Positions 3,936 to 10,815 of a DNA stretch of 19,914 nucleotides are shown piece after piece (positions within the stretch are counted from its first letter, which is position 1; each line of letters opens with the position of its first letter). Source of the DNA: Anaerolineales bacterium (GTDB lineage Bacteria > Chloroflexota > Anaerolineae > Anaerolineales > Villigracilaceae); assembly GCA_025966435.1 (NCBI GenBank), contig JAICRQ010000012.1, positions 1 through 19,914 on the forward strand, given 5' to 3'. Under the pieces are notes generated by a model, which saw nothing but the letters and a program-made list of their open reading frames with translations, was not told the DNA's origin and ran no database searches. Both the position numbers and the translations under genes were made by a program.

Positions 3936-4508
3936 ATGCCCCCTGCCGATTACCCCACCCTGCCAGTTGAAAGCAAAAAGAAATGGACAGACTGGCTTTC
4001 TAAGCAGCACGACAAATCCACGGGCGTGTGGTTGAAGCTCGCCAAAAAGGACTCTGGCGTTCCCTCGGTCACCTATGAAGAAGCCCTCGATGTTGCGTTG
4101 TGTTACGGCTGGATCGATGGACAGAAAAAAGGCTTCGACGACAAATACTGGCTTCAGAAATTCACACCGCGCGGCAAGAAGAGCATCTGGTCGAAGATCA
4201 ACACCGAAAAAGCGGAGAGACTCATCGCCAGCGGCGAGATGAAACCTGCCGGGCTCAAGGCAATCGAAGCCGCCAAACAGGACGGTCGCTGGGAGGCGGC
4301 GTATGCTTCGCAGAAGACTATTACGGTCCCGGCGGATTTTCAGGCGGCATTGGATCAGAACAAAAAAGCCAAAGCATTTTTTGACACATTGAAGAGTGCG
4401 GAACGATATTCATTCCTGTTCCGAATTTACAACGCTAAAAAGCCCGAAACGCGTGCCCGGCACATTCAAAAATTTGTCGAAATGCTGGAAAAGGGTGAGA
4501 AGCTCTAA
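3936..4508 (+). CDS. YdeI/OmdA family protein
   Basis: A 190-residue protein that matches the YdeI/OmpD-associated (OmdA, bacteriocin-protection-like) family. It has the early W-x-x-WL segment, GVWLKLAKKDSG, then YEEALDVALCYGWIDGQKK and the FTPRGKKSIWSKIN block. The C-terminal helical part (SAERYSFLFRIYNAKKPETR, about 155-175) is also typical. Members are cytoplasmic and have been linked to resistance to antimicrobial peptides, but no biochemical activity is firmly known. The start at 3936 is the first ATG of the frame. The next gene begins 37 bases after its stop on the same strand, so the two may be co-transcribed. Confidence 0.85.
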   Translation: MPPADYPTLPVESKKKWTDWLSKQHDKSTGVWLKLAKKDSGVPSVTYEEALDVALCYGWIDGQKKGFDDKYWLQKFTPRGKKSIWSKINTEKAERLIASGEMKPAGLKAIEAAKQDGRWEAAYASQKTITVPADFQAALDQNKKAKAFFDTLKSAERYSFLFRIYNAKKPETRARHIQKFVEMLEKGEKL

Positions 4509-4545
4509 ATTACGTGGAAGCAGTTCTATATTGAGCCCAAATCTC

Positions 4546-5367
4546 ATGGATAACTTGATCAAAGAAGTCATCCTCGGCAAGGACCATCAAGCACAAAGCG
4601 AAGTCTATGGCGGCTCTTTTGAGTCTCAATATATCGCCTGGGGAACCAGTGTCGGTGCGACGACGAAGCCTAATGAAGATGCGTTGGGGGTGTCTGTTTT
4701 AGGTGCGGAAGTTGTCCTGGCAGTTGCAGACGGTCACTGGGGAAGAGATGCCAGTGAGATCGCCGTCTCAAAAGCGGTGGAATTGCTCAACCCCAATGCA
4801 CGTCCTTCGAAGGATAGCGAAACTCGGGCACGATTGTTCGCTTTGTTCGATCAGGTGAACACTGAACTCTACGAGTTAGCCACATCTTCTCCTGGCGCCT
4901 CGGCGTCGGAAACCACCTTAATTGTGTGTCATGTCAAAGAAACCTCTGAGGGGAAATATCTGTACTGGTCCAGCTTTGGCGATTCGTATTTGTTCCTTTT
5001 ACGAAATGGTGAATTGAAACAGTTAAACTCACTCCACCAGTTCTGGCTGGGATACCTCTCCAAGTTGTCCGAGAGTGCCAGCTCCAGGTCGATTCTGATG
5101 AGGTTTTTGTCTGAAGAAGGTCGTTACGTCGGTGTTGCAAGCGGACTCGAAACAGGCATCGAAAAATTGGAACAGGATGACCTCATCTTTTTGTGCACCG
5201 ATGGCTTGATTGGTTCTGATTATGAGCCTGAGCAAGCTATCCTTGATGAGCTGCGAGCGATATTGATTTCCGATTTGCCGGTGAAATCAAAGGTAGAGAA
5301 AATGATTGTTTTTGCACTGAGCAGAGGCGAACAGGATAATATTTCCTGCGTCCTGGCGCGGATCTGA
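4546..5367 (+). CDS. PP2C-type serine/threonine protein phosphatase
   Basis: A 273-residue cytoplasmic phosphatase. All metal-binding positions of the PP2C/PPM family are visible: NED (E44, D45), ADGHWG (D62, G63), FGDSYLF (D146), LCTDGL (D219) and EQDNISC (D264). It should remove phosphate from Ser/Thr of proteins using two Mn or Mg ions. I prefer the ATG at 4546; an in-frame TTG at 4531 is possible, and codons further upstream overlap the previous gene. No kinase partner is in the window. It ends 54 bases before the first BMC gene on the same strand, but a separate promoter lies in that gap, so a functional link is uncertain. Confidence 0.9.
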   Translation: MDNLIKEVILGKDHQAQSEVYGGSFESQYIAWGTSVGATTKPNEDALGVSVLGAEVVLAVADGHWGRDASEIAVSKAVELLNPNARPSKDSETRARLFALFDQVNTELYELATSSPGASASETTLIVCHVKETSEGKYLYWSSFGDSYLFLLRNGELKQLNSLHQFWLGYLSKLSESASSRSILMRFLSEEGRYVGVASGLETGIEKLEQDDLIFLCTDGLIGSDYEPEQAILDELRAILISDLPVKSKVEKMIVFALSRGEQDNISCVLARI

Positions 5368-5380
5368 ACCTGCTCGCCAC

Positions 5381-5409
5381 TTGACGCAATCTCCCGTCAC
5401 GAAGATAAT
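5381..5409 (+). promoter_or_regulatory. Sigma70-type promoter of the BMC operon
   Basis: TTGACG (5381-5386) and GATAAT (5404-5409) are separated by exactly 17 bases. Each box is one base from consensus. The predicted transcription start is near 5416, only about 6 bases before the ATG at 5422, so the first gene would be almost leaderless. No Shine-Dalgarno sequence precedes that ATG, which agrees with this. Confidence 0.65.
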
Positions 5410-5421
5410 CAAACCACAGAT

Positions 5422-6006
5422 ATGTCCAAGCCTGTCAATGACGCGGAACTTCACGAGATTGTACAGCGCGTGGTCCATCAGGTGATGGGAACTTCTACGC
5501 GTGAGCCTGCTGTGCCAGCGGCTCCCTCTCCTGCGCGGACGGACGTTTCAGGGCGGAAAGTCGTTGCGATCGGTGCTGATCACGGGGGATTTGAGCTAAA
5601 GGAATCGCTCAAGAGCGAATTAAGCACATTGGGTTTTGAAATCAATGATATAGGGACGAACAGCAAAGATGCGGTGGATTATCCCGATTTTGCCCATGCG
5701 GTCGCGCAAGCCGTCGGCTCTGGCAAAGCCTGGCGGGGAATCATGATCGATGGGGCAGGGATTGGCAGTTGCATCGTCGCGAACAAGGTCCCTGGGGTAC
5801 GGGCAGGGATGGCGTATGATTACTCGTCCGCGGTCAACAGCCGCGAGCACAATGACACGAATGTGCTGACTTTAGGCGCAGGCTTGATCGGCGTGAACCT
5901 GGCAAAGCAGATCGTGAAGACCTGGCTGACCACCGAATTTGCTGGCGGGCGTCACACATCGCGCGTGGATAAGATAAAATCGGTAGAGAAGAAGTATTTG
6001 AAATAA
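5422..6006 (+). CDS. rpiB: BMC-associated ribose-5-phosphate isomerase B-like protein with encapsulation peptide
   Basis: 194 residues, of which about 150 form the RpiB/LacAB fold. Residues 5-22 ([17 protein letters not shown]) form an amphipathic helix. A Pro/Ala-rich linker (24-40) then leads to the enzyme, the usual layout of a BMC encapsulation peptide. Family residues kept are D53-H54 (GADHGG), [10 protein letters not shown] (120-129), R141-E-H143-NDTNV and GGRHTSRV (H178, R181). The family interconverts ribulose 5-phosphate and ribose 5-phosphate or handles related sugar phosphates. The catalytic Cys of the E. coli-type enzyme (CGTG) is Asp here (D110, IDGAG). The Glu used by mycobacterial-type enzymes is Ser116. 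Activity may differ from true RpiB. It is the first gene of the BMC operon and overlaps deoC by one base (TAATG). Confidence 0.9.
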
Positions 6007-6938
6007 TGAAACCTGACGCAAAACTGATCGAACAGCTTGTCGAAATTATCACCCGCGAAGTATTGGTGGCAATGGCGGAGGAGGAACAACGCGTCGACCA
6101 CCCGGATGCCTACCAGTGCAAGTTCGATTGCGCAGACCATCTTTGTGTTCGCGTGTGTTATGACAAGATGGGGAATGTAATCAACGCCGGAGCTGAGAGA
6201 TTGACGTCCACGCTGGGGGTGATTCCACAAGATATGAACCTGGCAAAATATATCGACCATACCCTGCTCAAGCCCGATGCCACACAGCAGGAAATCGCAC
6301 AGTTGTGTTTCGAAGCACGTAAGTATGGATTTGCCTCCGTCTGTGTCAACCCGACGTGGGTGAGTCTGTGCTCGCAGTTGCTGAAGGGCTCGCCGGTTAA
6401 AGTTTGCACGGTGATCGGCTTTCCCCTGGGAGCGACTTCCTCCGAGACGAAAGCATTTGAAACGGAGACCGCAATCCAGCAGGGCGCGACCGAAATCGAC
6501 ATGGTCATTAACATCGGCGCGTTGAAAGCGCGCGATCTCGAGACGGTCGCAAGAGATATTCGCGGGGTGGTCAACGCGGCGCATGCGCATGGAATTATTG
6601 TCAAAGTGATTATCGAAACGTCTTTGTTGACGGATGAAGAAAAGACCATCGCTTCGCTGATCTCGAAAGAAGCGGGCGCAGATTTTGTCAAGACGTCCAC
6701 CGGGTTTGCCGGTGGTGGTGCAACAGTCCATGATGTGGAGCTAATGCGCAAGGCAGTTGGTCCGCAGATGGGAGTCAAAGCTTCGGGTGGAGTTAAGACG
6801 TTTGAGGATGCCGCCAGCATGATCAAAGCAGGGGCAACCCGCATCGGTGCCAGCGCAGGGGTGAAGATCATCCAGGGTCCAGGTGGAGCTTCGTCAACGG
6901 GGAATGGAAGCAATTCCTCATCTTCAAAAGGCTATTAG
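6006..6938 (+). CDS. deoC: BMC-associated deoxyribose-phosphate aldolase with encapsulation peptide and Cys-rich extension
   Basis: 310 residues, longer than the usual 220-260. The class I aldolase core begins near residue 77. The Schiff-base lysine is K229 (DFVKTSTGF), with the helper residues D165 (EIDMVIN) and K258 (GVKASGG). It splits 2-deoxyribose 5-phosphate into glyceraldehyde 3-phosphate and acetaldehyde, or runs in reverse. Residues 4-23 ([20 protein letters not shown]) form an amphipathic helix of the encapsulation type. Residues 36-66 hold four cysteines (C38, C42, C47, C51; C-x3-C-x4-C-x3-C) before a small predicted beta hairpin. The C-terminus has a Gly/Ser tail (about 291-310) beyond the normal end of the fold. 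Acetaldehyde is a classic BMC intermediate, which fits the shell genes that follow 9 bases later. Confidence 0.95.
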
Positions 6939-6947
6939 GAGCGCAGT

Positions 6948-7238
6948 ATGTTGATAGCAAGAGTGATCGGTACGACCGTATCTACGATCAAAGACGAAAA
7001 ATTGGCGGGGCGCAAGCTGCTCATCCTGCGGCAAACCGATGAGACCGGAGAACCTTCCGGAAGACCGTACGTCGCCGTGGATACTGTGGATGCGGGCATC
7101 GGCGACCTCGTGCTGACCGCCGCAGGTTCTTCGGCGCGCCAGACGGACATCACGAAAGATACGCCGGTGGACGCGGTCATCATGTCGATCATCGATTCGC
7201 TTGAAGTGGACGGTAAGGTCGTGTTTAGAAAGTCTTGA
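6948..7238 (+). CDS. BMC-P pentameric shell vertex protein (EutN/CcmL family), paralogue 1
   Basis: A 96-residue EutN/CcmL-type protein (Pfam EutN_CcmL). Typical features are the N-terminal MLIARVIGTTVSTIKDEKL, the K-LLILRQ strand, the VAVDTVDAGIGDLVL core and the hydrophobic VDAVIMSIIDSLEV near the end. Such proteins form pentamers that cap the vertices of the icosahedral shell. The ribosome site AGGAG lies 6 bases before the ATG. It is the first of three BMC-P paralogues in the operon and sits directly before the only BMC-H gene. Confidence 0.95.
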   Translation: MLIARVIGTTVSTIKDEKLAGRKLLILRQTDETGEPSGRPYVAVDTVDAGIGDLVLTAAGSSARQTDITKDTPVDAVIMSIIDSLEVDGKVVFRKS

Positions 7239-7263
7239 TGCTGAGTAAAGAAAGGAAACAGAC

Positions 7264-7611
7264 ATGGCTGTAAACCCTGCAATGATTGCCCTGGGAATGG
7301 TGGAAACAAGAGGATTGATCGGCGCCATCGAAGCCGCCGATGCGATGGTTAAGGCGGCGAATGTAGAGTTAATTGGCTCGGAGTATGTGGGTGGCGGGTT
7401 TGTGACCGTGATGGTGCGCGGCGACGTCGGCGCGGTAAAAGCCGCAACGGATGCCGGCGCCGCGGCTGCGCGACGGGTAGGGGAGCTCGCTTCGGTTCAC
7501 GTCATCCCGCGCCCGCACACGGATGTGGAGATGATTCTGCCTCAGTCCAGCAAAGGCAACATTGGCGGTCGCTCCGAAGGCTCGTCGCGAAAATCAAAGT
7601 CTTCTGAGTAA
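7264..7611 (+). CDS. BMC-H hexameric shell protein
   Basis: A 115-residue single-domain BMC (PF00936) protein. [20 protein letters not shown] is the classic start of the domain. The pore loop [16 protein letters not shown] places Gly43-45 around the central pore. [13 protein letters not shown] and VHVIPRPH complete the fold at about residue 85. Residues 93-115 are an extra Ser/Gly/Lys-rich tail. Hexamers tile the shell facets and pass small metabolites. The ribosome site AAAGGA precedes the ATG. It is the only BMC-H in the window and no BMC-T is present, so further shell genes may lie elsewhere. Confidence 0.97.
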
Positions 7612-7621
7612 TTGATTCCTC

Positions 7622-8083
7622 ATGCCCAAAGAGTTTTATACGGAAAGAGACATTGAAGATCTGTTCCAGCGCGGCATTCGTTCTTTGCAGGTCACTGAGA
7701 ATGTGGTGCTGACTGAGCTGGCGTACGAAAAAGCCAGAGGTTTAGGGTTTCAATTGATTACGGATCGGGCGGACAACCCACCCGCGGCGCCAGTACGGCC
7801 GTATATTGCAGAACAGCAGACGTCTCGTCCGGTATCGACGATTGGTCCCGCATCTTCTCCCGTTGAGTCTCTGCCCAAGCCTGCCATTCCTCGCGCTCCC
7901 ACTGAGCCTCAGGAATCGGGTGAGCGGAACGCCTCAATAGGAAACGTAGCCGCGGCGCAGAGGAGAGGCGATGTTGAGCAGAGGATCCGTTCTGCGGTCA
8001 TCGCACGGCTTGGGAATCAGGTGGATGCAAAACTGCTGGATAACATTATCCACCGCGTGGTCAAAAGTGTAGGGCTGAAATAA
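7622..8083 (+). CDS. BMC operon linker/scaffold-like protein of unknown function
   Basis: 153 residues with no recognised enzyme domain. Residues 1-48 form a small alpha/beta unit (FYTERDIEDLFQRGIRSL, then LTELAYEKARGLGFQLI). This resembles the N-terminal segments of EutT/EutQ-type BMC proteins. Residues about 52-100 are a Pro/Ser/Ala-rich disordered linker. Residues 117-132 and 134-153 are two amphipathic helices. The last one, DAKLLDNIIHRVVKSVGLK, closely follows the pattern of the RpiB encapsulation helix (I-[IV]-x-R-V-V-x-x-V in both). It lies between BMC-H and BMC-P genes and overlaps the next start by one base. I infer a scaffold that links cargo to the shell; a regulatory or assembly role is the alternative. 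Confidence 0.8.
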   Translation: MPKEFYTERDIEDLFQRGIRSLQVTENVVLTELAYEKARGLGFQLITDRADNPPAAPVRPYIAEQQTSRPVSTIGPASSPVESLPKPAIPRAPTEPQESGERNASIGNVAAAQRRGDVEQRIRSAVIARLGNQVDAKLLDNIIHRVVKSVGLK

Positions 8084-8403
8084 TGTTGTTTGGCAGGGTT
8101 CGAGGCACCGCCATCTGTACGATCAAATATCCCGGCACGGATGGGGTGAAGTTGCTGGTCGTCCAGCCGTTGAACAAGAAACTGGAACCGATTGGCATCC
8201 TGCAAGTCGCCGCCGATGTGGTTCATGCCGGTCCCGGTGACTTATGCGTGATGGTGCGCTCACGCGAAGCTGCTCTTGCGATGCGCGACGAAAAATTTGT
8301 GCCCATCGACCTCGCCCTCGTTGGCATCGTGGATGAACTGGAAGTGAAGCCCGATGGCACGTTTGATTACACGTTGCGACAGGGTCATAATCAATTCACT
8401 TAA
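8083..8403 (+). CDS. BMC-P pentameric shell vertex protein, paralogue 2
   Basis: A 106-residue EutN/CcmL-family protein: MLFGRVRGTAICTIKYPG, KLLVVQPLNKKLEP, VAADVVHAGPGDLCVMV and the closing PIDLALVGIVDELEV. It is predicted to cap shell vertices. The ATG overlaps the stop of the linker gene (TAATG), which suggests coupled translation. About 10 residues extend beyond the normal end. It differs clearly from paralogues 1 and 3, so the vertices may be mixed or specialised. Confidence 0.95.
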   Translation: MLFGRVRGTAICTIKYPGTDGVKLLVVQPLNKKLEPIGILQVAADVVHAGPGDLCVMVRSREAALAMRDEKFVPIDLALVGIVDELEVKPDGTFDYTLRQGHNQFT

Positions 8404-8428
8404 TTTTTTAAGCACAAAGGTTTTACGA

Positions 8429-8707
8429 ATGATTTTGGGTAAAGTCGTTGGTACGATCGTGACAACCGTCAGCCACCCGCATTACAAGAACCGGAGGCTG
8501 CTGGTCGTCCAGCCGTTGGTGATGGACGGGGATACACCCGAACCGAACGAGGACTTTATCGCGTTGGATAACACGCAGGCAGGAATTGGCGATACGGTGC
8601 TGGTAAATCGCGAAGGGAATGGTGCGCGCCAGGCGTTGAACATCCCTGATGGCGCGGTGATCTCTGTGATCGTCGGAATTGTAGATTCCATTTATTTGGA
8701 AGGCTGA
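8429..8707 (+). CDS. BMC-P pentameric shell vertex protein, paralogue 3
   Basis: A 92-residue EutN/CcmL-family protein: MILGKVVGTIVTTVSHPHYK, RRLLVVQPLV, FIALDNTQAGIGDTVLV, and VISVIVGIVDSIYLEG. I chose the ATG at 8429 because AAAGG lies upstream at 8416-8420 and the protein then matches the family length; the frame is open further upstream but would overlap paralogue 2. It is the last shell gene of the operon and is followed 10 bases later by a strong hairpin. Confidence 0.95.
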   Translation: MILGKVVGTIVTTVSHPHYKNRRLLVVQPLVMDGDTPEPNEDFIALDNTQAGIGDTVLVNREGNGARQALNIPDGAVISVIVGIVDSIYLEG

Positions 8708-8717
8708 TCACTGCATC

Positions 8718-8747
8718 AATATCCGGAGTCAAAAGACTTCGGATATT
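8718..8747 (+). terminator. Hairpin after the last shell gene (terminator or attenuator)
   Basis: AATATCCGGAGTC (8718-8730) pairs with GACTTCGGATATT (8735-8747): 13 bp with one G-U pair and an AAAA loop. The following AATTTAAT is a poor U-tract, so termination may be partial. Only 23 bases separate it from the next gene, leaving little room for a new promoter; it may tune read-through. Confidence 0.65.
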
Positions 8748-8770
8748 AATTTAATCCCAAGGAGTAAAAG

Positions 8771-9160
8771 GTGAAAGAATTCCGAAATCCCCACGACGTT
8801 CACAAGCCAGTTGGTTCCTACTCTCACCAGATCGAAATTAAGGGGAATGAACGTTTATTAGTCATTTCTGGTCAGGTTGGGATGCGGGAAGACGGCACGA
8901 TTCCGGATGATCCGTTCGAGCAAATTGATATTGCTTTTGAGAATGTCCTTCGCAACCTTCGCGCAGCAGGCATGGATGTAAAAGACTTGATCAAGGTCAC
9001 CTATTATCTTGTAGGCGAAATGGATACGGCAAAGCGACGCGAGCTCGTGCTCTCGAAGTTACAGGGGCATCAACCATGTAGTACGTTGTTATATGTGGCT
9101 GCCCTAGCCAGCCCTGCGTTTCGGGTGGAAATCGATGCATGGGCTTCGCGCGCGGAGTAG
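8771..9160 (+). CDS. Rid family (YjgF/YER057c/UK114) protein lacking the RidA catalytic arginine
   Basis: 129 residues with a GTG start, preceded by AAGGAG at 8759-8764. The family pattern is clear: PVGSYSHQIEI, LLVISGQVGMREDGTI, then FENVLRNLRAAGMDVKDLIK and FRVEIDAWA. Rid proteins are trimers. RidA itself hydrolyses reactive enamines/imines. By my alignment the position of RidA Arg105 is Ser104 here (QPCSTLLYV), as in other Rid subfamilies that lack imine deaminase activity. The function is therefore open. It follows the BMC hairpin by 23 bases and could be co-transcribed by read-through, perhaps handling aldehyde-derived or imine by-products. Confidence 0.85.
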   Translation: MKEFRNPHDVHKPVGSYSHQIEIKGNERLLVISGQVGMREDGTIPDDPFEQIDIAFENVLRNLRAAGMDVKDLIKVTYYLVGEMDTAKRRELVLSKLQGHQPCSTLLYVAALASPAFRVEIDAWASRAE

Positions 9161-9220
9161 GTTCAGTCCTACAGTAAAATACCACCACATAGATGATTGA
9201 TAATGAGATAAGGAGCTTTT

Positions 9221-9670
9221 ATGCATATTGGTGTTCCTCAGCCTGTGGCGATCCTACCCGGAGGCGGCAGGACATTACAGTTTCTTGGCGTCACCCACAA
9301 GCTGACCAGCGACCAAACTAACGGTGCATTTTACGTTTGCGAAGCCGTGTTCGGGCCGGAAAGTGGAAGCCCATTACACATTCATCATTACGAGGATGAA
9401 GTGATCTATGTTTTGGACGGGGCAATTGATATCCGGCTCGATAACGAGAAGCTCCATGCGCCAGCCGGTGGAATGGTTCATTTGCCGAAAAAGATTCCTC
9501 ATGCGCTACAGAATCCGTTGAAAACCCCGTTGCGAATCATTGTTCATGCAATCCCTGGCGGGCTGGAGCACTATTTCGATGACGTGGATGCCGCTTTACA
9601 AAATGGTTCTTTCAATGCTGAGCTTCATACCGAAATATCAAAGAAGTATGGGCTGGAGTGGTTGGAATAA
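9221..9670 (+). CDS. Small cupin-domain protein
   Basis: A 149-residue single cupin. Motif 1 is SPLHIHHYEDEVIYVLDG, with metal ligands H53, H55 and E60; motif 2 is LPKKIPHALQN, with H94. The preceding EAVFGPESGSP and the following TPLRIIVHAIPGG are typical of quercetinase-like small cupins. The metal and substrate are unknown; members include dioxygenases, isomerases and regulators. The ribosome site AAGGAG lies 6 bases before the ATG. It stands between the Rid-like gene and lactate dehydrogenase on the same strand, so it may belong to the extended BMC neighbourhood, but nothing in the sequence proves this. Confidence 0.85.
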   Translation: MHIGVPQPVAILPGGGRTLQFLGVTHKLTSDQTNGAFYVCEAVFGPESGSPLHIHHYEDEVIYVLDGAIDIRLDNEKLHAPAGGMVHLPKKIPHALQNPLKTPLRIIVHAIPGGLEHYFDDVDAALQNGSFNAELHTEISKKYGLEWLE

Positions 9671-9681
9671 GTCAAATTATC

Positions 9682-9801
9682 GTAGTAACGGCTTTCCTGA
9701 CATCGTCCGTCAGGACAGGTGTAGCCGTTGATTTTGAAGCAAAGAAGTGTGTAAGCGACTACACTTGCCCTGGCGGGCAGTGCTAGGGGAGTCGCCACTA
9801 C
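9682..9801. repeat. Structured intergenic repeat element with imperfect inverted ends
   Basis: The gap between the cupin and lactate dehydrogenase holds GTAGTAACGGCT (9682-9693) and AGTCGCCACTAC (9790-9801), which match as inverted ends at 9 of 12 bases. Similar internal arms are GTGTAGCCGTT near 9718 and AAGCGACTACAC near 9754. There are also three hairpins: TCCTGAC/GTCAGGA (9695-9715), AAGTGT/ACACTT (9745-9766) and TGCCC/GGGCA (9766-9779). It has no coding potential. It looks like a dispersed REP- or MITE-like element. Confidence 0.55.
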
Positions 9802-9816
9802 ATCTTAGGAGGATTA

Positions 9817-10758
9817 ATGAAAACAGGAATTGTCGGGAGTGGATTTGTAGGCGCAACTGCCGCCTATGCTTTGGTGATGCGCGGCGTGGGGCGCAGATTA
9901 GTGTTGGTCGATCAAAACCGGGGACGTGCGGAGTCAGAAGCAGATGATATTCTGCATGCGGTCCCATTTGCGAATCCTCTGGAAGTGACTGCTGGGGATT
10001 ACGCAGATCTGGCTGGATGCCGGGTGGTGACCGTCTCGGCTGGTGTGGGACAAAAGCCTGGAGAGACGCGCCTTCAATTGTTGGAGCGAAACGCACAGGT
10101 GTTCAAGCAGGTCATTCCCAACATTCTTCAACATGCTCCTGATGCAGTTCTGTTGATCGCGACCAACCCGGTCGATGTGATGACGCACCTCGCTGCTCGT
10201 TATGCCGCGGAGTTTGGCGTCCCCTCCAGCCGTGTGATTGGCTCGGGCACGACGTTGGATACCGCGCGCCTGCGCAGCCTGATTGGGCGGCACTTGAATG
10301 TCGATTCCCAGCACATCCATGCCTATGTGTTAGGCGAACACGGCGACTCAGAGGTTATTCCCTGGTCTCTGGTTACGGTTGGTGGGATACCTTTATCCGA
10401 GTTTTGCCATGCGGGGAAAATATCAATCTGCCCGGAAGATTATGATGTGATCGATCAACGAGTCCGGCGAGCGGCGTATCACATTATCGAAGGCAAAGGC
10501 GCCACGTATTATGGGATTGGCAGCGCCATCGCACGCATTGTGGAGGTCATTTTGCAGGACGAGCGTTCCATCCTTACCGTTTCCACCCCGATGGAGGATG
10601 TGGCGGGCGTGAAGGATGTGACGGTCTCACTTCCAAACCTGGTGGGTGGGGAGGGAATTATCAAAACATTTTTCCCCAACATGAGCGAAAAAGAGACAGA
10701 GTTATTAGGTGCCAGCGCCAGGGTTGTACGTTCCGTGATCGATCAGCTCAATCCATAA
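9817..10758 (+). CDS. ldh: L-lactate dehydrogenase
   Basis: A 313-residue NAD-dependent enzyme of normal length. It has the Rossmann GSGFVGA near the start and D32 for NAD binding. The substrate loop [12 protein letters not shown] places Q79 and R85. DTARLR has D148 and R151, and GEHGDSEV has the catalytic H175. Gln at the specificity position points to pyruvate/lactate rather than malate, which needs Arg. It reduces pyruvate to L-lactate and regenerates NAD+. There is no N-terminal encapsulation helix, so it is probably cytosolic. A strong AGGAGG ribosome site precedes the ATG. It ends the plus-strand run that starts with the BMC genes and is closed by a perfect terminator. Confidence 0.93.
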
Positions 10759-10780
10759 TCGATTTGAATTCCCGTTAAAT

Positions 10781-10815
10781 AAAAGACATCCGAGTCGTGG
10801 ACTCGGATGTCTTTT
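10781..10815. terminator. Bidirectional rho-independent terminator between ldh and ftsH
   Basis: GACATCCGAGTC (10785-10796) and GACTCGGATGTC (10800-10811) form a perfect 12-bp stem with a GTG loop. It is flanked by AAAA before and TTTTT after, so it can work for both converging genes. Confidence 0.93.

Follow-up and report, generated by a model that had tools for sequence, protein, structure and literature searches.

Contig JAICRQ010000012.1, a 19,914-nucleotide stretch of Anaerolineales DNA analysed at its full length (hereafter the window; contig C63 of genome G000), carries a compact bacterial microcompartment (BMC) locus. This locus is probably the satellite of a split metabolosome for sugar phosphates and ethanolamine, encoding the aldolase DeoC, the isomerase RpiB and the vertex proteins of the shell. 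Visible in the sequence are: the gene content; the division of the corresponding locus in relatives; genomes with two loci; the positions of DeoC and BMC-H in trees; and the intact motifs of DeoC. From these we infer an aldehyde dehydrogenase (AldDH) in the window organism, co-packaging, the direction of flux and the substrate. The parent metagenome-assembled genome (MAG) comprises 3.84 Mb in 635 contigs and is 80% complete, and the closest named relatives of its DeoC are mostly Anaerolineales or Chloroflexi MAGs.

The genes from RpiB to RidA (Table 1) all run head to tail with spacings of -1 to 63 bases, which argues for an operon-like array and against chance. Among forward open reading frames (ORFs) of at least 70 aa at 5381-10811, Pfam and NCBIfam assignments bear out the gene content given in a preliminary description of this DNA: an rpiB-like gene, deoC, one BMC-H (hexamer) gene and three BMC-P (pentamer) genes. 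They also confirm what that description found missing at 5.4-10.8 kb: AldDH, alcohol dehydrogenase (ADH), phosphotransacylase (PTAC) and BMC-T, with a reference search used for the double-stacked BMC-T^dp. The core of a classical metabolosome, with AldDH, PduL and ADH in one locus, is not found in the window. The earlier account had passed over the 153-aa protein here called X, RidA and the cupin, and had not noted that RpiB and DeoC are extended at their N-termini.

The wider survey covered 400 genomes of Anaerolineales. DeoC matches at E <= 1e-80, a count that includes matches without the N-terminal extension, occur in 193 of them, and AldDH matches at E <= 1e-60, which include AdhE-like proteins near 40% identity, in 151. 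DeoC neighbourhoods were read in 53 of the 193 genomes; gene orders, taken from homology-first ORF calls, were written out for 81 stretches, including the window and six contigs of its own genome, and then for further ones. A BMC domain was found in 58 of 150 genomes, the window's own counted, and in 11 of 18 within its genus.

In other genera of the order the locus is in one piece, RpiB-DeoC-P1-AldDH-H-(MreB-like)-T^dp-X-P2-P3, to which some genomes add a second P1, a GntR regulator or TIM; of the 32 rows classed as full, three run into a contig end (L205, L058 and L229, the last of these before AldDH). These complete sugar-phosphate-utilising (SPU) loci have AldDH-H-(MreB-like)-T^dp at the position of the window's lone BMC-H, and most of the loci read have a relative of X in the corresponding position. 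The gene of ~209 aa was considered as a possible PduL and rejected; it matches CcmP (4ht5, E 1e-61) and other double-stacked shell proteins, and is a CcmP-like BMC-T^dp. The MreB-like protein, of ~285 aa with an MreB/FtsA/PilM-like ATPase fold, is frequent in AldDH-bearing loci (L057, 9405-10271; L051, 6827-7672) and is possibly EutJ-like.

In the window's genus (G006, G009, G011, G012, G013 and G017) and in two other genera of its family, g5 and g15, an ethanolamine-utilisation (EUT)-type locus instead combines AldDH, BMC-H, the MreB-like protein and T^dp with EutA, EutB, EutC, EutL and EutQ; this locus is cut by contig ends in G009 and G013. Here RpiB-DeoC-P1-X-P2-P3 stands apart from the AldDH locus, mostly without BMC-H. 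Where DeoC and AldDH share a contig, they are separated by ~18 kb in G021, ~114 kb in G031 and ~0.72 Mb in G011 (one contig). A counterpart of the window is G006 (same genus; 99% complete, 1% contamination), with a compact RpiB-DeoC-P1-H-X-P2-P3 on contig C29 and, on C22, an EUT-type locus (EutABC) with AldDH, BMC-H, EutL and T^dp. Compact loci that have BMC-H and lack AldDH are found in the window, in G006 and, within genus g94, in G244, G303 and G333. Very probably G016 belongs with them: its contig C68 breaks off behind P1 at a BMC-H-like start (MAVDP), which came to light after the locus had been labelled compact, and P2, P3, RidA and lactate dehydrogenase (LDH) follow on C67. Its AldDH locus has EutL, and EutB was not found in the genome. 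Other divisions also occur, since G351 keeps H and T^dp in the DeoC locus with AldDH elsewhere, and G244 is split three ways into a compact locus, EutABC-EutL, and AldDH-H-T^dp-X.

AldDH stands outside the DeoC locus in 21 of the 53 genomes read. In 16 of these 21, an AldDH 63-100% identical to the G006 query was found elsewhere (G002, G006, G009, G010, G011, G012, G013, G015, G016, G021, G031, G044, G050, G057, G244 and G351). The proposal that the compartment as such does without aldehyde enzymes is not borne out by this distribution. No BMC-type AldDH match was obtained in the other five: the window's own genome, G004 (88% complete), G303, G333 and G101. G244 has its AldDH in a cluster with an X gene; contig C14 of G303 begins within the X gene of this cluster, and contig C360 of G333 ends 55 bases past its last match, at about the start of that X gene. 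As both contigs end at the AldDH cluster, absence of AldDH is shown in neither genome. In G303, C14 and C39 (L265, L266) begin with identical X-gene sequence, a repeat that may have broken the assembly.

The distribution bears on the alternative of a true AldDH-free compartment, in which DeoC would condense acetaldehyde with glyceraldehyde 3-phosphate or use other sugar phosphates, and LDH would balance redox. Such a compartment would fit a locus without AldDH in a MAG where no BMC-type AldDH was found, and in G000, G006 and G016 LDH does lie close to the compact locus. A count of genomes with DeoC and without a BMC-type AldDH match (DeoC E <= 1e-110, completeness >= 90%) leaves four, G026, G101, G303 and G333; family f5, whose AldDH looks too divergent for 1e-60, and G034 (99% complete), whose match begins only at residue 62, were set aside. 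Of the four, G303 and G333 are the genomes broken at the AldDH cluster, and G026 and G101 have no BMC-H match, so that no shell is in sight there. An AldDH-free BMC was therefore rejected as the principal interpretation. AldDH is present in sister genomes, and the LDH has no N-terminal extension; at >=79% identity this L-LDH occurs in only four of the 28 genomes searched, beside RidA near the compact locus in the three named above (other LDH entries: L052, L259, L260) and, as the fourth, in G003 (87% complete), which has no DeoC match. We consider this alternative highly improbable; nothing supported the condensing direction suggested earlier, and the data can be explained without it.

Packaging of LDH as a redox partner was likewise unsupported, with the targeting-helix pattern at neither end in seven of seven LDH-family rows; its C-end has an amphipathic stretch (shuffle fraction 0.03-0.04). 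One speculation would be that LDH recycles NAD+ in the cytosol of the three genomes that have it near the locus. The lack of PduL is not peculiar to the window: PF06130, the one phosphotransacetylase family searched for, was found in none of 25 genomes examined, complete-locus genomes among them.

The window's own genome contains part of a second locus. Its BMC inventory consists of one BMC-H, that of the window, and four BMC-P, three in the window and one on contig C442 (a genome-wide BMC-P search was made for this genome only). C442 reads FGGY-DAO-BMC-P-EutA-OsmC-EutB-EutC and stops inside EutC; its EutB and the G006 EutB share 91% identity. In G006, EutL and AldDH follow directly after EutC, past the point at which C442 ends. 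The preliminary description had allowed that the aldehyde enzymes might lie elsewhere, and had held that a second locus supplying them would make this an ordinary split metabolosome. Such second loci exist in relatives, the same-genus G006 among the 16, and the window's genome shows EutA-EutB-EutC-BMC-P of one. With AldDH itself unseen in this MAG and C442 ending inside EutC, a split in the window organism is an inference.

The loci without a hexamer suggest that the two halves may depend on each other. Thirteen satellites have RpiB-DeoC-P1-X-P2 without BMC-H, P3 being recognised in 12 (not in G031, L202); with no BMC-H beside them, such loci cannot form a shell alone. Conversely, the AldDH locus of G002, G010 and G015 has BMC-H and, in the 14-19.5 kb fetched, no BMC-P. 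Neither EutL nor EutB was found in these three genomes (EutB searched genome-wide), and each has a single BMC domain. With no EutB found, DeoC is the only aldehyde source seen there. DeoC and three pentamers in one locus, and hexamer and AldDH in the other, make the best case for a joint function of the two loci.

The trees suggest how the division arose. In the DeoC tree (53 rows), the window, G006 and G016 (85/85) lie inside a group supported at 98/92 whose other 11 rows are H-less satellites, and the compact-with-H state requires two origins. In a DNA tree of BMC-H (60 rows; bootstrap not fully settled), a 99/96 branch separates the hexamers of EUT-type loci, together with that of the RpiB-DeoC locus of G105, from those of complete SPU loci. 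The labels are rough: L217 (G148, EUT-type) is tagged full SPU and falls on the EUT side, and of two rows tagged EUT main, L256 (G244, AldDH-H-T^dp-X without Eut genes) falls on the SPU side and L079 (G105, RpiB-DeoC-AldDH) on the EUT side. The compact hexamers of the window and G006 stand on the SPU side, with those of complete loci from the same family as neighbours (84/85). Grouped in this way with complete SPU loci, the window's BMC-H looks like a retained relic, and its origin as a copy from the EUT-type locus is disfavoured. The simplest account of the history is that a complete SPU locus lost AldDH, T^dp and the MreB-like gene, and then BMC-H in most species.

A compact locus with its own hexamer also raises the possibility of two separate organelles, in which a T-free shell of H and three P would enclose DeoC and RpiB only, beside a distinct EUT shell, and acetaldehyde would leave to be taken up by the EUT shell or a cytosolic enzyme. 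This agrees with the window and G006 loci owning hexamer, pentamers and X, with a BMC-H set apart from EUT-type hexamers, and with the two origins of the compact-with-H state. However, most sister satellites have no adjoining BMC-H and would need to borrow one, and release of acetaldehyde would forfeit the usual gain of a metabolosome. In addition, 78 of 84 core positions are shared between the window BMC-H and its counterpart in the EUT locus of G006, making co-assembly plausible. Two separate organelles thus appear unlikely. A further, rather doubtful variant would be that the two hexamer sets and two enzyme sets, as in G006, are coupled organelles passing acetaldehyde from a T-free DeoC/RpiB shell to an AldDH/ethanolamine shell. 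Sister species no longer possessing the second hexamer would then have fused the two into a single mixed organelle that receives both DNA sugar and ethanolamine.

Under the favoured reading, a satellite within a split metabolosome, the ancestor would have carried the one-piece SPU locus RpiB-DeoC-P1-AldDH-H-MreB-like-T^dp-X-P2-P3. AldDH, the MreB-like gene and T^dp would have been lost once an EUT3-like locus in the same genome (EutABC, EutL, AldDH, BMC-H, EutQ, MreB-like, T^dp and X) supplied them; the old hexamer would have been retained in the window, G006 and very probably G016, and lost from most sister satellites. RpiB and DeoC, whose terminal helices resemble the ones in AldDH, EutC and X, would enter a shared shell for which both loci provide the hexamers, T^dp and pentamers. 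Here, DeoC would cleave its substrate and AldDH, acting in trans, would turn acetaldehyde into acetyl-CoA, which would leave by another route, as PF06130 is missing from all 25 genomes. RpiB cannot isomerise a 2-deoxy sugar and should therefore act on another sugar phosphate.

Features of the two enzymes are relevant to this scheme. Their catalytic domains are preceded by extensions of ~47 residues in RpiB and ~78 in DeoC. Residues ~7-22 of RpiB form an N-terminal helix resembling an encapsulation peptide. RpiB residue 110, before GxGxG, is Asp, where the PDB RpiBs 3ph3, 3he8 and 1nn4 carry Cys; Asp occupies this position in 50 of 51 BMC RpiBs by pattern and, by eye, in the remaining row, L067. 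This may reflect a different substrate or a different base. In DeoC, whose aldolase domain starts at residue ~78, a model places a helix at residues 5-31 and strands at 37-43 and 46-52. Four Cys lie on the predicted beta-hairpin 37-43/46-52, which is modelled at low confidence, and are conserved in 53 aligned rows: C38 in 52, C42 in 46, C47 in 46 and C51 in all 53. The seven rows without C42 are the same seven without C47, as if the residues formed two cross-strand pairs, perhaps as disulphides or a metal site. K229 and K258 (in FVKTSTGF and GVKASGG), which we take to be the Schiff-base lysine and its helper, occur without exception in 37 of 37 rows, and from these motifs DeoC is expected to be a working aldolase.

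For X, the model predicts that a linker of low confidence joins a small folded N-terminal domain to two C-terminal helices resembling an encapsulation peptide (mean pLDDT 74.9, pTM 0.32). Foldseek gave no match to the PDB at E <= 0.001, and the X sequence gave nothing below E 0.9 against the PDB. A terminal-helix pattern, chosen post hoc after the sequences had been seen, matches the C-end of 48 of 55 AldDHs and 54 of 62 X proteins, and the N-end of 14 of 16 EutCs and 34 of 51 RpiBs, against a background of 13 (N) and 8 (C) in 522 other ORFs. The EutC of the window's own genome bears such a helix.

The conserved motifs also bear on a further explanation, that the DeoC locus is a decaying relic, shedding genes outside any working organelle after the EUT-type locus took over. 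Stepwise loss, of AldDH and T^dp and then of H, would be in keeping with decay, as would the bare RpiB-DeoC-P1-P2-P3 of G101 and the RpiB-DeoC of G026, with targeting-type N-ends and neither a BMC-H nor an AldDH match. This is nevertheless very unlikely: the window's reading frames are intact and close to those of G006 (P1 95%, P2 87% and P3 88% identical), both active-site lysine motifs of DeoC are kept, and the satellite is retained in G002, G010 and G015, where EutB was not found.

Several observations weigh against the split-metabolosome reading. The window's own 80% complete MAG yielded no BMC-type AldDH, EutL or T^dp; its six PF00171 proteins reach ~30% at most over 41-272 residues against BMC AldDHs, and a lone 46% match covers 13 residues. 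G101 (99% complete; L230) has RpiB-DeoC-P1-P2-P3 with no BMC-H, AldDH or T^dp found, and is unexplained. EUT-type loci occur without a DeoC match in G017, G060 and G148, showing that the halves are not always together. A compact locus with its own BMC-H could build its own shell, and the grouping of the three compact DeoCs has support of 85/85 only. Finally, the helix pattern matches just 7 of 54 DeoC N-ends, though the DeoC helix itself is conserved, with different spacing, and visible in the 53 aligned rows; it also occurs in 24 of 60 BMC-H N-ends and is thus not cargo-specific.

The comparison with known systems draws on parts of the published accounts. Like SPU loci (Axen 2014; Sutter 2021), the window has RpiB (pfam02502), DeoC (pfam01791), BMC-H and a BMC-P triplet, and the DeoC and BMC-H trees join it to complete SPU-type loci of the order. 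Unlike them, it has no AldDH, MreB-like gene or BMC-T^dp, and in most such relatives AldDH is in a second locus. As SPU loci are described as containing AldDH (PMC4207490, PMC8217296), the window departs from the type; the earlier SPU grouping stands for the enzyme pair and the shell genes and fails for AldDH, and the locus is filed here as an SPU-derived satellite rather than an SPU main locus. Sutter 2021 (PMC8217296) describes SPU6 in Anaerolineae, EUT modules, EUT genes replacing SPU enzymes in the main locus, and a fused locus resembling EUT3. The second locus of G006 and other relatives, with EutABC, EutL, AldDH, BMC-H and T^dp, fits the description of EUT3. In the main text passages of PMC8217296, the fate of the displaced RpiB-DeoC-pentamer block was not found; its Supplementary Data 2 may draw it. 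The HO type I satellite (Sutter 2021) is comparable in having BMC-P genes and an aldolase split from the main locus; the present satellites differ from it by carrying three BMC-P genes, RpiB and X, plus a BMC-H in a few genomes. A satellite as defined there, distal from the main locus and with shell proteins and enzymes, is what G006 shows; the window's genome shows only EutA-EutB-EutC-BMC-P of its second locus. The satellites seen here are the counterpart of such EUT replacement: the DeoC/RpiB/vertex block that was displaced, whether or not it kept a relic hexamer. This block was not found described in the main text passages of PMC8217296, supplements aside. Among the titles listed by the literature searches, none is on SPU biochemistry.

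Table 1. Genes of the window's BMC locus and its flanks, with the matches that identify them
Feature	Coordinates	Strand	Evidence and remarks
PP2C-type protein phosphatase	4396..5367	+	PF13672 E 1e-12; 54 bases upstream of rpiB
RpiB-type sugar-phosphate isomerase	5422..6006	+	PF02502 E 2e-53, domain from residue 48; PDB 3ph3 E 8e-45 from residue 47
DeoC deoxyribose-phosphate aldolase	6006..6938	+	TIGR00126 297.5 bits (cut-off 117.3); PDB 6d33 E 8e-87 over 78-293
BMC-P1 (pentamer)	6948..7238	+	PF03319 E 8e-29
BMC-H (hexamer)	7264..7611	+	PF00936 E 3.5e-29
X, 153 aa	7622..8083	+	no Pfam match; weak EutQ match E 1.6e-4
BMC-P2 (pentamer)	8083..8403	+	PF03319 E 6e-20
BMC-P3 (pentamer)	8429..8707	+	PF03319 E 3e-19; ORF list start 8354, domain start 8429
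RidA/YjgF family protein	8771..9160	+	PF01042 E 1.6e-18; no targeting extension
Cupin	9221..9670	+	PF07883 E 8e-14
L-lactate dehydrogenase	9817..10758	+	TIGR01771 342.2 bits (cut-off 303.6); no targeting extension

At the flanks of the locus, the PP2C phosphatase is possibly co-transcribed with rpiB, and its membership of the cluster is uncertain; a relative sits after P3 in the satellite of G050 (L201), and a regulator role is possible. RidA also lies near the DeoC locus in G006, G016 and G004. The cupin, which was not seen adjoining the locus in G006 or G016, is probably a plain neighbour. In G026 (L263, 4280-6915), both RpiB and DeoC have targeting-type N-ends, 15 kb of sequence around them shows none of the reference shell genes, the genome gave no match for BMC-H, and the DeoC frame continues into ~340 more residues.

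An apparently AldDH-free compartment thus becomes a good case of a metabolosome with parts shared by two loci. Satellites without a hexamer gene cannot close a shell by themselves, and the AldDH locus shows no pentamer gene in three genomes. Together the two loci offer a natural test system for how one AldDH and one shell could serve two substrates, deoxyribose phosphate and ethanolamine. They also carry a warning that single loci from fragmented genomes can overstate 'incomplete-core' BMC types. The window's genus lets stages of locus fission be compared and, if coupled and then merged organelles were to prove true, would make a series of fission and fusion visible inside one genus.

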